64,000 nt of DNA from an uncultured Nioella sp. (GTDB lineage: Bacteria > Pseudomonadota > Alphaproteobacteria > Rhodobacterales > Rhodobacteraceae). The stretch is from contig CANLZL010000001.1 of NCBI GenBank assembly GCA_947495575.1, forward strand, positions 558,001 to 622,000, read 5' to 3'. This document shows positions 55,390 through 63,628 of the stretch, one piece after another (the stretch's first letter is position 1; each line of letters begins with the position of its first letter). Made by a program: the position numbers and the translations under genes. Under the pieces are notes generated by a model. It did not search any database. It had not been told where the DNA came from and worked only from the letters and a program-made list of their open reading frames with translations.

Positions 55390-55603
55390 GTCCGTCTTCC
55401 TTCTCAAGTCCTAGTCCTGCCCCCGAGGGGCGTCGAAATTGACAGAGGATCCCGCGCGGGCCTTCTTGAGAGGCGGTTTTGCCGAAAACCTGTTGTCACT
55501 GGCAAAAGAATGAGGTGATTTGGTCAAAAGGCAAGAAAATTCGCGCAGGCGTCACATGAACTTCATACTGGGGCACGTGCAAAACGCGGGAAAAGAGGGC
55601 GAA

Positions 55604-55930
55604 ATGGAGCTTTTTGGCTTAAAAAACTGCGATACCTGTCGAAAAGCGGTGAAAGCGCTGGCAGCGGCGGGTGTTGATGTGCGGCTGGTGGATGTGCGCG
55701 CGGACCCCGTTTCGCGGGCCGATCTGGAGGCGTTTTCAGCGGCATTTGGAGAGAAATTGCTGAACACACGCTCAACCACATGGCGCGGTCTGTCAGAGGA
55801 GGATCGCGCGCGGGATCCGCTCGATCTGATTGCTGAGCATCCTGCGCTGATGAAACGCCCCGTCATTCGCGGGGAAGACGGGGCGCTTTACCTTGGTTGG
55901 ACGAAAGAGGTTCAGGCGGCGCTCATCTGA
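55604..55930 (+). CDS. ArsC/Spx-family reductase-like protein
   Basis: A 108-residue thioredoxin-fold protein with the family start MELFGLKNCDTCRKAVKAL, holding a CxxC (NCDTC). It matches the YffB/ArsC-related group of unknown substrate rather than true arsenate reductase; no ars genes are near. Start 55604 follows AAGAGGG. Its last 19 bases overlap the convergent DoxX gene. Confidence 0.88.
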   Translation: MELFGLKNCDTCRKAVKALAAAGVDVRLVDVRADPVSRADLEAFSAAFGEKLLNTRSTTWRGLSEEDRARDPLDLIAEHPALMKRPVIRGEDGALYLGWTKEVQAALI

Positions 55931-56481
55931 GGCAGGGCGCGGGCGCGCAGAATTGCATCAACTGAGAGCGGCCCGGCCCCGCGGAAGACCAGATACAGCA
56001 GCACGAAGATCCAGAAGGCGCGTTGGTCAAAGATCAGCGCATCAGGGATCCCGTCAAACCAGCTGCCGCGATCCTCTGCCGCAACGCCATGGCCAAAGAT
56101 ATCAACCCAAGATTGGGCAATGACAAAGCCGATCATGCCAAGGGCTGCAAAACGAGTAAAAAGGCCGATAACCAGAAGCAGGGGCAAAACAAACTCACCA
56201 ATGGTCGCGCCGACCACCAGCAGGCGCCAGAACGCGCCAAGTTGTGATGCGTCGTAATTTACTGCCTCGGACATGCGGGGCAGGATCTGCACATAGGCGT
56301 TGAAATTGGGGCTGAAGAGGCCAAAGATCCCGTCGCCCAGCTTGGTCATCGCCGAGTTCCAGTAATAGACCAGAAGAGTGCCCGCAAAAATCAGCCGGGC
56401 CATGGTGGGCAGGGCGATGGCGGCGACACGCTCCTCCAGCATAGAAAACGTACGGTCATAAAGTGAGATCAGGCTGTTCAT
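55912..56481 (-). CDS. DoxX-family membrane protein of bufferin cluster
   Basis: A 189-residue DoxX-type protein with four membrane helices (about 25-45, 85-105, 110-130, 160-175). The ARLIFAGTLLVYYWNSAMTKL and GATIGEFVLPLLLVIGLFTR stretches are typical. DoxX genes are frequent partners of DUF692/DUF2063 pairs in bufferin clusters, probably as a redox or membrane component. It starts two bases after the DUF2063 stop and is last in the - strand order bufA-bufB-bufC-doxX. Confidence 0.9.
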   Translation of the reverse strand: MNSLISLYDRTFSMLEERVAAIALPTMARLIFAGTLLVYYWNSAMTKLGDGIFGLFSPNFNAYVQILPRMSEAVNYDASQLGAFWRLLVVGATIGEFVLPLLLVIGLFTRFAALGMIGFVIAQSWVDIFGHGVAAEDRGSWFDGIPDALIFDQRAFWIFVLLYLVFRGAGPLSVDAILRARALPQMSAA

Positions 56482-56482
56482 G

Positions 56483-57226
56483 TTATTGGACCTTTCCGGA
56501 TGAGAGGGTCAGGGCGGCAGAGCCGAGGAAAAGGGTGAGGATCGCGGCGATATCTGCGCGTGGGGCCGCGGCCATGCAGGCCTCAATCGCGCCAGCGATC
56601 GGTGTTTCGCCATCAAGGGCTTGCGCGAAGGCTGCGCCGCCCGTGGGCAAAAGATGTGGCACGGGATCAAAATTGACGCGGGTGACCAGAACGTCTTCGG
56701 CCACGGGCCAGGGTTTTGGCGCGTCCGGCTGCATATTCATCTGCCAGATGCCGAAGATCGGGAAGCGCGAGGTGAGCACCTGGGTTGCTGGTGCAAGCCG
56801 GGGCGTCAGCGCCATCAAGGCTTCTGGATCAAGGCCAGCAGCGTCCAGCGGCGCGCTGTCGGCGGCATGATAAGAGGCGCGAATGGCAAGCTCCAACCGG
56901 GCGACATCGGCCAGATAGGGGAGGGATTTCAACGGCTTAAATCCCTCAAGAAAACCGGGCATCGCATCGCCATATTGGCTAAGCGCGCGCGATGTCGGCG
57001 GGTTGGCCCGCAAAAACAGCGTTGCCAGGGTTTTGAAACTGTCTTGGCCCAACAGTTTTTGCAGAACCGGAAAGCCCGTTTCCAGTGCCGCGATCAGCGA
57101 TGAGGTGACATTGTTGCGGTAGACATCAAACCGTTTGCCTGCCGGGCGCCCCTGAGGATCTTTGAGGCCTGCCGGGGTCGGCAAGTCGGGGTTCAAGATG
57201 GCGGCGGTGAAATCGGTTTGCGACAT
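56483..57226 (-). CDS. DUF2063 partner of MNIO enzyme (BufC-like)
   Basis: A 247-residue protein. N-terminal KRFDVYRNNVTSSLIAALE and FPVLQKLLGQDSF, then FLRANPPTSRALSQYGDAMP, are hallmarks of DUF2063, which forms a complex with the DUF692 enzyme and recognises the precursor's leader. It follows the DUF692 gene by four bases. In characterised MNIO systems (MbnC/BufC) this partner is needed for modification. Designated BufC by context. Confidence 0.92.
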   Translation of the reverse strand: MSQTDFTAAILNPDLPTPAGLKDPQGRPAGKRFDVYRNNVTSSLIAALETGFPVLQKLLGQDSFKTLATLFLRANPPTSRALSQYGDAMPGFLEGFKPLKSLPYLADVARLELAIRASYHAADSAPLDAAGLDPEALMALTPRLAPATQVLTSRFPIFGIWQMNMQPDAPKPWPVAEDVLVTRVNFDPVPHLLPTGGAAFAQALDGETPIAGAIEACMAAAPRADIAAILTLFLGSAALTLSSGKVQ

Positions 57227-57230
57227 CGGT

Positions 57231-58085
57231 TCACGCCTCGACCGGTGTCAGGATCGCGTCGGCGCGGGCGGCTTCTTCACGCAGAACGGGAAACTCGGGT
57301 ACGTCATTATCCCACTCTATTAGAGTCGGTTTTTGACCGCCGGTTCTGATCGTATGCGCATATAACACCCAGACCGGGTCAATAACTTCCCGTCCGTGGC
57401 TATCAATCAAAAGCGGTGCGCCATGTTCATCTTCATCCTCGTCATGGCCGCCCAGATGGATCTCGCCGACAAGGTGATGTGGGAATTTGTTAATGTAATC
57501 AATTGGGTCCCAGATCTGATTTGTGCAGGACACAAAGACGTTGTTGACGTCGAGCAGCAGGCCACACCCGGTGCGTTTCGCGATTTCGGTCAGGAACGTG
57601 ACCTCATCCATCGTGCTTTCTTCAAACGCCAGATAGGTCGACGGGTTTTCCAGCAGCATCGGGCGACCAACGGCGTTTTGTACCTCGTCGATATGGTCGG
57701 CCACGCGGGCCAGGGCGGCCTCGGTATAGGGCAGGGGCAGTAAGTCGTTCAGGAAATGCGCGTCATGGGTGGACCAGGCCAGATGTTCGGAAAAACTGGC
57801 AGGGTTCAGCCAGTCGCAGAGATGTTTCAGGCGCGCGATATGGTCCTTGTCCAGGGGGCCTTCGCCGCCAATGGACAGGCCAACACCATGAACTGAGATG
57901 GGAAACTGTTCGGCCAACGCGCGCAACTGTGCCAGTGGTCTGCCGCCATCGCCCATGTAGTTTTCCGCGTGGATCTCCAGCCAGTTTACCGGGCCCGGTT
58001 CGGTCCGCAGCTCAGCAAAATGCTGAGGTTTGTAGCCGATGCCAGCGGTCTTGGGCAGGCCAGAGGAAGAGACGAAATCATACAT
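57231..58085 (-). CDS. DUF692 multinuclear iron oxidase (BufB-like)
   Basis: A 284-residue TIM-barrel of the multinuclear non-heme iron oxidase (MNIO) family. Metal-site segments are all visible: [60 protein letters not shown] and [16 protein letters not shown]. In bufferin pathways these enzymes oxidise cysteines of the precursor to thiooxazoles that bind copper. The spacer to the precursor gene has two stem-loops. The assignment to BufB rests on the precursor type and gene order. Confidence 0.95.
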
Positions 58086-58109
58086 ATCAGGCGATCCTGT
58101 TTAGCGGCG

Positions 58110-58145
58110 ACGGGCGTTCGCGGGCGGAGAACCCGGAACGCCCGT
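58110..58145. promoter_or_regulatory. Stem-loop 2 between bufferin precursor and DUF692 genes
   Basis: ACGGGCGTTC (58110-58119) and GAACGCCCGT (58136-58145) are perfect 10-base complements around a 16-base loop. It lies just upstream of the DUF692 start on the - strand. No T run follows, so it may stabilise or pause rather than terminate. Confidence 0.6.
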
Positions 58146-58166
58146 ACTATACCCGAAAATCGGGGG

Positions 58167-58210
58167 TGTGGCTGCGCCGAGGTTTGTAGGGGGCCATCGG
58201 CGCAGCCACA
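58167..58210. promoter_or_regulatory. Stem-loop 1 after bufferin precursor gene
   Basis: TGTGGCTGCGCCGA and TCGGCGCAGCCACA are perfect 14-base complements with a 16-base loop, 16 bases downstream of the precursor stop on the - strand. It has no T tail. It likely protects the upstream mRNA end and reduces read-through, giving more precursor than enzyme. Confidence 0.75.
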
Positions 58211-58225
58211 TGAGGAAAGGAAGGC

Positions 58226-58600
58226 TTAGCCGTCCATCATCATGTCAAGGTCGCGGTAACCGGCGAGAACGTCGTCGGACAGGCCTTCGGGCAGGTCACG
58301 GTTCAGACCGTTGTAACCGTCAGCTTCCAGCGAGGCCTCGGCTTCGCCGTGGCGGCCGTCAGGCAGTTCGATATCGGCGCAGGTGCCTGCAGGAACGAGG
58401 GTCCAGGCGTTGCCTTGGTAGTCGATGGTCGACGTGCCGGCACAGGTGGTGCCGGGGCCTGCGGCGCAGCCGTTTTCACCGGCCAGAGATACGCCGTAGC
58501 ACTTTTCCATTTCCTGAGCGGACACAGAGGTGGTGGAAACAGCGCCAAGTGCAGCAGCAACAGCGCCCATCAGGGCCAGAGATTTCATTTGGGTCGACAT
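58226..58600 (-). CDS. Bufferin-type precursor peptide (DUF2282) with long acidic tail
   Basis: A 124-residue precursor. A signal peptide (about 1-28, cleaved after VSA) is followed by the core with four cysteines C34, C45, C53, C74 in the DUF2282 pattern: [21 protein letters not shown] and LVPAGTC. In bufferins, the cysteines are converted by the DUF692/DUF2063 pair and bind copper. Residues about 75-124 form an acidic tail ([18 protein letters not shown]) that is longer than in the bufferins I know. A GGGAG site precedes the start. First gene of the four-gene unit. Confidence 0.88.
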
Positions 58601-58956
58601 TTGGGGTGCTCCCGTAAGACAGTTAAAATTCAGTAGTCGTTGCCCGTTGTCGGGCTGACACCGAAAGAATTAACGGCTGATTTCCACACGAACCAATCAC
58701 AGGCTCGTCAAGCACACGTGCGTGAGCATTCGTCAGGTGCGTGTGAGGAATTCGTGAGCGCCGAAAATTCACTAAGCCTATTTATTTCAGTGGCTTGTCT
58801 GAAAGTAACCGCTTTGAAGTTTAACCTTTCTGTCACGAACTGCACCCGCATAACGGGTAAATGTTACAGCGCTTTCCGTGGGAATTTCCTTGGATATGGT
58901 CCCGTCTATGCCTATGTCACGCCTTGAGCAGGCAAATCACAGGAGAATCCAGCCTC
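58601..58956. promoter_or_regulatory. Divergent leader region of bufferin and 58957 genes
   Basis: No convincing gene; a + frame at 58640-58927 has no ribosome site. It should hold the bufferin promoter on the - strand and that of the gene at 58957 on the + strand. Imperfect direct repeats GTGCGTGAGCATTCGT (58718) and GTGCGTGTGAGGAATTCGT (58737) may be regulator sites. A T/A-rich stretch lies near 58770-58835. Confidence 0.4.
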
Positions 58957-59325
58957 ATGCGTAACGCAGCCCTCGTTTTGGGAATCATTGGCGGCATCCT
59001 AGGGATGATCGTCGGCTTTTTTGGCTACGGCTATGTTGAGTTTGTCGAATGGTTCGGAGAAGTGCCCGATCTGGCCGAACAGGTGGATAACCCTGACCTG
59101 ATCCAAGCCGCCTCGATCCTTTCGCCCATTCTGGCTCTGGCGGGCGGCGCCATGGCGCGGGCCCGTGCGCTATGGGGTGGTGTTCTGATGCTGATCTCGG
59201 CCGCGGGGATGTATTATGCCTTTGGCTTTGGTGTGTTCACCATGTTCCCGATTGCCCTGACCGGGCTTGGCGGCATTCTGGGTGTGGCGGCTGGACGTCC
59301 TGATGAAGAGGTCAGCCACTTTTGA
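58957..59325 (+). CDS. Small membrane protein, DUF4064-like
   Basis: A 122-residue membrane protein with about four helices. The N-terminal LGIIGGILGMIVGFFGYGYV and AAGMYYAFGFGVFTMFPIAL resemble DUF4064-type small membrane proteins with glycine-rich packing. ATG 58957 follows AGGAGA. It is divergent from the bufferin gene and converges on the lipocalin-like gene with a 14-base overlap. Function unknown. Confidence 0.7.
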   Translation: MRNAALVLGIIGGILGMIVGFFGYGYVEFVEWFGEVPDLAEQVDNPDLIQAASILSPILALAGGAMARARALWGGVLMLISAAGMYYAFGFGVFTMFPIALTGLGGILGVAAGRPDEEVSHF

Positions 59326-59764
59326 TGGAGCCGCTTTGGGATGGCGCCGCGCGTTCCCATTCAAGATAGGCTGTGATGGGTTTGCCCTGAAATACCGCGC
59401 CACTTGCACTTAGGCGCAAATAGGTTCCATTGAATTGGAGTTTGCGCACCTGGCTTGTTCCGACCCAGTTCGGGAAAGAGGCGTGATCGACAAAATGTGT
59501 CACCACATCGCCTTGGCGCTCATATCGGCCCGCATATGTGATCTGAGATTTCATTGCGGCCGAGTCTTCCTCGGCGGTGCCGCCATAAGGATCGTTCAGC
59601 ACATAATGCGCGCGCTCAGGTGCTGAGATATGGACAAAGACAAACCCATCCGCGCTGTAACTGATATAGCCGGTCGCGTCTTGACCCATCGGATAGATCT
59701 GTTGACCGTCTTCGGTCTCGTTATACCAGCTGCGAAGGGACCAGGTTCCAGTAAGCTCTGTCAT
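59312..59764 (-). CDS. Lipocalin-like domain protein
   Basis: A 150-residue protein of the lipocalin-like (Lipocalin_5 type) group: start TELTGTWSLRSWYNETEDG, then YMxxxTGYISYSADGFVFVHIS and TFxD-like strands ending YLEWERA. No signal peptide. Ligand unknown. Start 59764 (MTELTG) is chosen over a five-residue extension. Converges with the membrane gene at 58957. Confidence 0.8.
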   Translation of the reverse strand: MTELTGTWSLRSWYNETEDGQQIYPMGQDATGYISYSADGFVFVHISAPERAHYVLNDPYGGTAEEDSAAMKSQITYAGRYERQGDVVTHFVDHASFPNWVGTSQVRKLQFNGTYLRLSASGAVFQGKPITAYLEWERAAPSQSGSIKSG

Positions 59765-62462: not shown

Positions 62463-62882
62463 TCAGGTCAGGCGTGCCGCAAATACGGCATACCCCATCA
62501 GCAAGACGCAAACCCAACCCATTGAATAGAGGATGGGACGGATCGGCATGCGGGCCAGGCCCGAAATCATACCCACGGCATGCACCACTCGGATCCAGAA
62601 GAACGCAATCGCCGTCCAATAGGTGAGGGCTGTGAACCCATCGACGCGATCCAGGATCAGGATCAGAATGGCAAAGGGAATACCTTGCTCAAGCAGGTTC
62701 AAATGGGCCCGATTGGCGCGTTGGACCCATGGGCGCAGATTGGGGATCTGGGCGGGCCGGCCAAACGCATCTTCGCCACTGGGGTCAGCGGCCAGCCCGA
62801 TCACATAGGGCATCCACATCGAGGCGGCGAAAAGCATCAGGCAGGTCAGGACGCCCAATTCGGTTGGAAAGCTCTCCATCAC
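62463..62882 (-). CDS. MAPEG-family membrane protein
   Basis: A 139-residue protein with four helices and the MAPEG signature: RANRAHLNLLEQGIPFAIL and WIRVVHAVGMISG. Related proteins are membrane glutathione transferases or similar. Its start overlaps the stop of the upstream ArsR-type gene (62879-62882), so the two are co-expressed. Confidence 0.88.
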   Translation of the reverse strand: MMESFPTELGVLTCLMLFAASMWMPYVIGLAADPSGEDAFGRPAQIPNLRPWVQRANRAHLNLLEQGIPFAILILILDRVDGFTALTYWTAIAFFWIRVVHAVGMISGLARMPIRPILYSMGWVCVLLMGYAVFAARLT

Positions 62883-63628
62883 ATCGCCCCCATATCGGAA
62901 TAACGTGTGGCCTCACCGGTTTCGAGCCATGTCTTGATGCCTGACAGCAAGCGCTCCCAACCGTCAATGACGCCTTCCTGACCTTCGGGAATGTCGAAAT
63001 GCTCTACCGTCAGGCGCATGAAGCCTTCGCGCGGCTCAAGGATATAGACACATCGAGAGCTGGCCATTTCCGGGCCCCAATGCGGATGAAATTCAAACTC
63101 CAGCCGGGTCTTTGGAGTGGCTTTGGTTGTGCGGATCTCAAGCATCTTATTGTCCTGCACATAGTAGATGGCCCCGTCCTCGCGGGTCAGGTGGCCTTCG
63201 GCACGGGTGGCCATGAAATGGTATTGCACGACCTGTGCGGGATCGGTCAGCGCATCCCACAGCGCGTCTTGGGTGCAGCGGATAAAGGTGCTCATTACAA
63301 AATCGGGTTTCGACATATCTTTTCCCTCCAGGCGAGTTTTCAGGTCCAGAACAGACCGGGCAGCGGGTCCCACAATCAGCGGTTCGATCCAGCGATCGAC
63401 CACTTCCTGCAGGGGTAACGCGTTGAGGTAATGGTATTTGAACCGGCCCTCACGGCGCGTGGTGATCAGACCGGCCTCTTCCAAGACACCCAAATGTTTC
63501 ATGACGCCAAACCGTGTCATGTCCAGCCGGGGTTCAAGGTCGCTCAGCGACTGTCCGTCTTTCTCGCGCAGGCAATCGAGAAGGTCGCGACGGGCAGGGT
63601 CGTTCAGAGCTTTGAAGATCAAGTCCAT
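62879..63628 (-). CDS. ArsR-type regulator fused to SRPBCC domain
   Basis: A 249-residue fusion. Residues 1-85 are an ArsR winged helix (FKALNDPARRDLLDCLREKD, then MTRFGVMKHLGVLEEAGLIT), without metal-binding cysteines in the recognition region. Residues about 105-240 are an AHSA1/SRPBCC ligand-binding domain (VMSTFIRCTQDALWDALTDP). Such fusions likely sense a small hydrophobic ligand. A 40-bp palindrome lies in its promoter region, so it probably represses itself and the divergent hydrolase gene. MAPEG follows in the same unit. Confidence 0.92.
   Translation of the reverse strand: MDLIFKALNDPARRDLLDCLREKDGQSLSDLEPRLDMTRFGVMKHLGVLEEAGLITTRREGRFKYHYLNALPLQEVVDRWIEPLIVGPAARSVLDLKTRLEGKDMSKPDFVMSTFIRCTQDALWDALTDPAQVVQYHFMATRAEGHLTREDGAIYYVQDNKMLEIRTTKATPKTRLEFEFHPHWGPEMASSRCVYILEPREGFMRLTVEHFDIPEGQEGVIDGWERLLSGIKTWLETGEATRYSDMGAM

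Follow-up and report, generated by a model that had tools for sequence, protein, structure and literature searches.

The 64,000-nucleotide (nt) stretch analysed here (hereafter, the window), part of contig CANLZL010000001.1 of assembly GCA_947495575.1 from an uncultured Nioella sp. of the Rhodobacteraceae, encodes a predicted Buf1 bufferin operon at positions 55912-58600 of the minus strand. The best overall explanation of the locus, to which we assign a probability of about 0.85, is a Buf1 operon whose product would be matured, exported and employed in copper buffering, and whose expression would be governed by a putative operator ahead of the precursor gene and a hairpin behind it. More tentatively, at slightly less than even odds, we propose that in many Rhodobacteraceae, including the bacterium studied here, the sigmaF/NrsF switch known from Caulobacter is exchanged for a regulator not yet described, which would control the bufferin operon by recognising a tandem palindrome that, in each genome, is nearly unique to bufA.

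The Buf1 cluster and its conservation

A first-pass annotation of this DNA had proposed a bufferin-type cluster in which a DUF2282 precursor, a DUF692 MNIO enzyme, a DUF2063 partner and DoxX form a single minus-strand unit. All four genes are in place and the Buf1 cluster is complete, with family matches above cut-offs and a gene order shared with relatives. In the direction of transcription, these are bufA, the Buf1 precursor (58226..58600; 124 amino acids (aa)); bufB, the MNIO maturase (57231..58085; 284 aa); bufC, the DUF2063 partner protein (56483..57226; 247 aa); and the gene of a DoxX-family membrane protein (55912..56481; 189 aa), separated by gaps of 140, 4 and 1 nt, respectively. All four products score above the Pfam cut-offs, with E-values of 3e-23 for DUF2282 (82 bits, cut-off 22.4), 1.4e-104 for MbnB_TglH_ChrH, 2e-24 for DUF2063 (86.1 bits) and 7.5e-08 for DoxX (PF07681; 33.3 bits, cut-off 23.6). 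Thus, the cluster includes DoxX, which is common but not universal in Buf1 clusters. The DUF2282 and MNIO matches at this locus are the only ones in the genome (3.68 Mb, 26 contigs).

Together with the window, the comparison comprised 82 sequences, the others being 80 named loci and L032, from a member of the same genus. The named loci were picked from 457 candidates as the 80 most similar to the window, so that the comparison set leans towards its kin. The order bufA-bufB-bufC-doxX is conserved in 70 of the 80 named loci, nine show the first three genes and no match to the window's DoxX within the stretch examined, and one, with bufA and bufB, reaches the end of its contig. The E-values together with the identical order in 70 relatives exclude a chance match. 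Counting the genome analysed here, bufA is present in 140 of the 198 genomes of the family and 36 of the 61 mixed relatives; in each of two genomes, a pair of bufA matches lies in tandem (G008:C18:55402-56011 and G125:C45:5446-6142). In the tree of BufB, the closest named relatives are Nioella and Alterinioella. Judged by its sequence, the locus is a Buf1 bufferin operon, and the bacterium that carries it has its nearest named relatives in this comparison in these two genera. The cluster itself is ordinary for the family and belongs to the Buf1 bufferin clusters described in the covered text of PMC12452194. The operator, the intergenic hairpin and the long precursor tail described below go beyond the first-pass annotation.

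Maturation proteins

BufB is assigned to the bufferin maturase family by the NCBIfam equivalog model MNIO_BufB (376.8 bits, cut-off 310). The metal site had been described as intact, and the alignment with TglH bears this out: all nine iron ligands reported for TglH (His71, His107, Glu151, Asp184, Asn187, His216, Asp229, His231 and Glu258; PMC10880893) are identical in BufB, where they correspond to H66, H101, E146, D179, N182, H210, D228, H230 and E257. The third-site residues of BufB correspond in role to N175, D242 and H244 of HvfB, replacement of which abolished activity (PMC13419390). The AlphaFold2 model of BufC (predicted local distance difference test (pLDDT) score 95) matches TglI (8hci_A, E-value 1.0e-06) and a gonococcal protein (3dee, E-value 2.8e-04), so that BufC, a DUF2063 (PME-type 1) partner protein by its Pfam match, has the predicted fold of TglI and 3DEE.

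Precursor

The four cysteines of the precursor, also claimed to be intact, are all present (C34, C45, C53 and C74) and are invariant in an alignment of 49 rows; all 82 precursors contain exactly four cysteines beyond residue 22. BufA has no match among the NCBIfam models. Its N-terminus (residues 1 to about 28) reads by eye as signal peptide-like, with a lysine, a hydrophobic run and V-S-A ahead of Q29, and A28 is invariant in the same alignment. The mature part would consist of 96 residues and contain all four cysteines. Confidence in the structure model of BufA is low (pLDDT 61; the C-terminal part does better than the cysteine core), and the model is too weak to support a fold search.

Of the four cysteines in the characterised Buf1, the central pair carries the modification and the outer pair is joined in a disulphide (PMC12452194), and each 5-thiooxazole changes the mass by -4 Da (PMC13419390). 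The expectation of a mass loss on each of the four cysteines, expressed in the first-pass annotation, is therefore amended: by this chemistry, the expected mass shifts are about -4 Da apiece for C45 and C53 and a further -2 Da from a disulphide between C34 and C74. For the window product, modification, copper binding and induction by copper are all predicted by analogy with homologues.

Beyond the Pfam domain (residues 31-79), BufA carries an RDLP motif at residues 101-104, and an RDLP-like motif close to the C-terminus is found in 81 of the 82 sequences. Most precursors stop at or just past this motif. The window's BufA belongs to a group of 18 of the 82 precursors with long tails, defined as at least eight residues after RDLP and ranging from 10 to 24. 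Its acidic tail (residues 105-124; 58229..58288, minus strand) ends in DMMMDG. Methionine accounts for 30 of the 292 residues in the 18 long tails, compared to 22 of 1278 in the cores of the same proteins and 106 of 4288 in the other 64 precursors. Seven of the long tails contain an MM pair, and six are free of methionine.

A tandem palindrome upstream of bufA

A putative operator of 33 bp (58693..58725, minus strand) lies 92 nt ahead of the bufA start codon and consists of two 14-bp palindromes, TSACG-N4-CGTGA, placed 15 bp apart (motif positions 1-14 and 16-29) and followed by TGG. The half-sites of both dyads are invariant and their centres are variable. The motif was detected upstream of bufA in 61 of the 82 sequences with scores of 22.4 to 44.6 bits, compared to at most 3.8 bits in shuffled sequences, using a matrix fitted on the same upstream regions. 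A held-out matrix, built from the 43 hits in loci whose precursors lack the long tail, recovered the motif in all 18 long-tail members at 20.8 to 42.9 bits (26.8 for the window site), with a maximum of 8.2 bits in 3600 shuffles. With the full matrix, the window site scores 34.7 bits, its own reverse strand 14.4, and the highest score anywhere else in the window is 2.1.

With a pattern fitted to the window variant, the operator is the sole one-mismatch match in its own genome; looser matches there equal the control (17 versus 16), and the single palindrome TSACG-N4-CGTSA occurs in 23 places compared to eight for the control. Allowing at most one mismatch, the strict consensus was found in 34 of 120 genomes of the family, as opposed to one of 120 for the reversed pattern, and in 31 of these 34 genomes the site is located 40-200 nt upstream of bufA. 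Across the class, the strict pattern matched three of 289 genomes and the control one.

The three genomes with strict sites away from the bufA upstream region are G137, G143 and G088. In G137, for which no bufA match is shown among the family-genome matches, a one-mismatch copy (L215:4317-4345), possibly a chance occurrence, precedes a gene for a YkuD L,D-transpeptidase. The one-mismatch copy in G143 (L216:3948-3976) and the bufA of that genome are on different contigs; close to the copy are aminotransferase-like and MsrA-like frames, both named by eye. In G088, the strongest match (L222:2720-2752; 35.4 bits) lies between bufA and bufB, whereas the site ahead of bufA reaches only 14.2 bits. 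Five loci (L089, L090, L091, L095 and L098) appear by eye to contain an extra GTGA repeat about 12 bp beyond the last half-site, which is partial in the window.

Overlapping the end of the operator, a promoter-like pair, TTGGTT and TTAATT separated by 17 nt (58668..58696, minus strand), was picked by eye as a guess; a sigma-70 promoter scan listed none upstream of bufA in the window. Among the 61 motif-bearing relatives, 32 have a TAnnnT/G element starting 21-22 nt past the motif, of which the window has an imperfect version, so that the site abuts the presumed -35 region. The putative operator would thus be in a position suited to either an activator or a repressor that acts by blocking.

A proposed exchange with the sigmaF/NrsF switch

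In Caulobacter, CC3254-CC3257 are controlled by sigmaF via GTAACC-N16-CGAA, and by CC3252, the negative regulator of sigmaF (PMC3511200). CC3252 corresponds to NrsF by its Pfam name, and the NrsF search scores in Caulobacter, which served as the control; the same search gave no match in the window's own genome. In a comparison covering 50 of the 80 named loci, NrsF exceeded the cut-off in 14 of 21 operator-negative genomes and in none of the 29 operator-positive ones (the operator-positive genome of L090 has a match below cut-off). Fisher's test on 14/21 versus 0/30 yields 9e-08, a figure that treats related genomes as independent, which they are not. On the tree, in which 17 of the 78 inner branches are starred, each trait requires four changes, and one independent pair falls on well-supported branches. 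Three Celeribacter loci in which the operator looks altered are counted among the 21 operator-negative ones and set aside on the tree.

The promoter pattern TGTAAC-N15..18-CG[AT][AC] was found in 7 of 21 operator-negative and in 2 of 61 operator-positive upstream regions, in the latter about 206-210 nt upstream. Within 220 nt upstream of the window's bufA, neither the TGTAAC nor the GGTAAC form of this pattern was matched. In the operator-negative Loktanella salsilacus, an extracytoplasmic function (ECF) sigma factor and NrsF are encoded divergently beside bufA.

Candidate readers of the operator

Among 81 loci with flanks of up to 5 kb, no conserved cluster of regulators adjoins the operon, by a count in which the open reading frame picker misses genes (only 59 of the 81 loci are represented in its bufB cluster). 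On the minus strand of the window, upstream of thrS, positions 62463-63628 encode a fusion of an ArsR-type helix-turn-helix with AHSA1 and, after it, a MAPEG protein. The ArsR-AHSA1 protein (62879-63628) was considered as the reader and rejected: it is present in 8 of 50 genomes, all eight operator-positive, and is missing from 21 of the 29 operator-positive genomes.

Hairpins between bufA and bufB

The 140-nt gap between bufA and bufB folds with -72 kcal/mol (z-score -7.6) and contains two large hairpins on the minus strand, the first, of 16 pairs, directly after bufA (58167..58210) and the second at 58102..58149. A stem of at least nine pairs follows the bufA stop codon in 75 of 79 sequences, compared to 41% of shuffled ones; the count omits the three of the 82 sequences in which the gap is undefined or outside 20-400 nt. 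By the same criterion, stems were found in 35 of 70 sequences after doxX, in 30 of 79 far upstream, and in 59 of 79 inside bufA, where folding is no better than in shuffles (median z 0.16). After bufA, the median z is -3.0, with 59 of 79 sequences below -2. In the distant loci L059-L062, the gap shrinks to 9-47 nt and holds no stable hairpin.

No intrinsic terminator is listed at the hairpin in the window, and no known RNA family reaches the gathering threshold within 55500-59400. Among the 75 hairpins, the following 8 nt contain at least five T in five cases and at least four T in 11. The last nucleotides ahead of bufB lie outside both large hairpins, so that hiding of the bufB ribosome site is not suggested. 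Hairpins in other operons are known to set the ratio of upstream to downstream messenger RNA (mRNA), and the likely role of the hairpin here is to keep precursor mRNA in excess over enzyme mRNA.

Proposed mechanism and alternatives

In the mechanism we propose, BufB-BufC would bind the precursor in the cytoplasm via its signal peptide and, as we suggest, also contact the near-invariant RDLP motif, and would oxidise Cys45 and Cys53 to 5-thiooxazoles. The modified precursor would be exported by Sec, Cys34 and Cys74 would pair as a disulphide, and the 96-residue product would buffer periplasmic copper. A trans-acting regulator would bind the tandem palindrome beside the bufA promoter, instead of the sigmaF/NrsF switch of Caulobacter, and the hairpin after bufA would hold precursor mRNA above enzyme mRNA.

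Several results weigh against parts of this scheme. BufC and DoxX fall below the NCBIfam HvfC and HvfX cut-offs (43.3 versus 142 and 26.5 versus 80 bits, respectively), and by sequence BufC matched no chain in the PDB. The strict operator pattern with one mismatch misses the window's own site because the latter departs from it at three positions. Seven of the 21 operator-negative relatives have neither the operator nor NrsF above cut-off, and the exchange between the two rests on few events, being a clade-wide pattern that is not independently repeated.

With respect to function, the product might be a genuine thiooxazole protein that serves mainly against a different stress, be it sulphur stress, oxidative stress or soft metals other than copper, and has only a secondary role towards copper. 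It was dichromate that led to the Caulobacter operon, whose sigmaF response spans several stresses (PMC3511200), gold-induced operons are mentioned and roles beyond copper suggested in PMC12452194, and DoxX points in the same direction; Caulobacter Buf1, however, chelates both Cu(I) and Cu(II) and aids growth in excess copper (PMC12452194), and we regard a primarily non-copper role as unlikely, if the most serious of the alternatives. A methanobactin- or oxazolin-type pathway, which shares the enzyme superfamily and whose HvfB model gives BufB 240.2 bits, is extremely improbable: this score is below the HvfB cut-off of 360, the MbnB (45.1 versus 325), ApyH and ChrH models also remain below theirs whereas BufB exceeds its own, and the precursor is a DUF2282 protein without the EGKCG repeat.

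On the regulatory side, the upstream motif could reflect a quirk of this operon's promoter or a feature of its DNA structure. This would fit the lack of a regulator gene conserved beside the operon, the failure of the sole candidate tested and the contact of the motif with the presumed -35 region, but the presence of two distinct dyads, each combining invariant half-sites with a variable centre, looks like protein contacts, and 31 of the 34 genomes with a strict match have it upstream of bufA; we consider the motif improbable as anything other than a regulator's site. Similarly small odds attach to a hairpin that splits two transcription units, with bufBCX expressed from a promoter of its own and absent from the bufA transcript. 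Such an arrangement would account for the position of the hairpin directly after bufA in 75 of 79 sequences, for the 11 short T tracts, and for the strongest operator match of G088 between bufA and bufB; yet most of the hairpins lack a T tract, no terminator is listed in the window, and the Caulobacter operon is treated as a single unit (PMC3511200).

Neighbouring genes

On the plus strand, a divergent gene (58861-59325) encodes a small protein with membrane-like stretches and without a Pfam match. Converging on the operon, the frame of an ArsC/Spx-like protein (55520-55930, plus strand) shares 19 nt with the end of doxX; of 81 loci, 32 have a member of this protein's family downstream of the operon.

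Relation to known systems and significance

The closest described counterpart is the Buf1 operon CC3254-CC3257 of Caulobacter vibrioides, in which the DUF2282, DUF692, DUF2063 and DoxX genes follow one another as they do in the window (PMC3511200). Unlike in Caulobacter, the window genome has no NrsF match, no GTAACC-N16-CGAA-type promoter was matched and the tandem palindrome is found instead; furthermore, the window precursor is long-tailed. With Buf1 clusters in general (PMC12452194), the window shares the core genes, the four cysteines, a signal peptide-like precursor N-terminus, and the combination of an MNIO with a PME-type 1 partner; the words promoter, hairpin and terminator never occur in the covered text of that survey, to which the operator, the hairpin and the methionine-rich tail are additions. 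The oxazolin/captophorin clusters HvfABC and FonABC (PMC13097082, PMC13419390) share a related MNIO, a DUF2063 partner and 5-thiooxazole chemistry, but their precursors contain EGKCG repeats. The cutF-cutO-cutG operon of Rhodobacter capsulatus (PMC9973294, PMC8456105) is a copper-response operon from the same bacterial group for which a stem-loop is discussed, although its proteins are unrelated to those of the window.

In the literature covered, part of which was judged by title or the start of the abstract, we found no published account of the operator, its link to the absence of NrsF, the hairpin or the methionine-rich tail, and control of bufferins is described there only for sigmaF/NrsF in Caulobacter. 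The conserved operator is a tangible starting point for learning how these bacteria perceive the stress to which bufferins respond, and the intergenic hairpin offers a testable hint on the precursor-to-enzyme ratio. The RDLP motif gives a hint on how the maturase recognises a substrate that still bears its signal peptide, and the methionine-rich tail hints at a possible second Cu(I) site.

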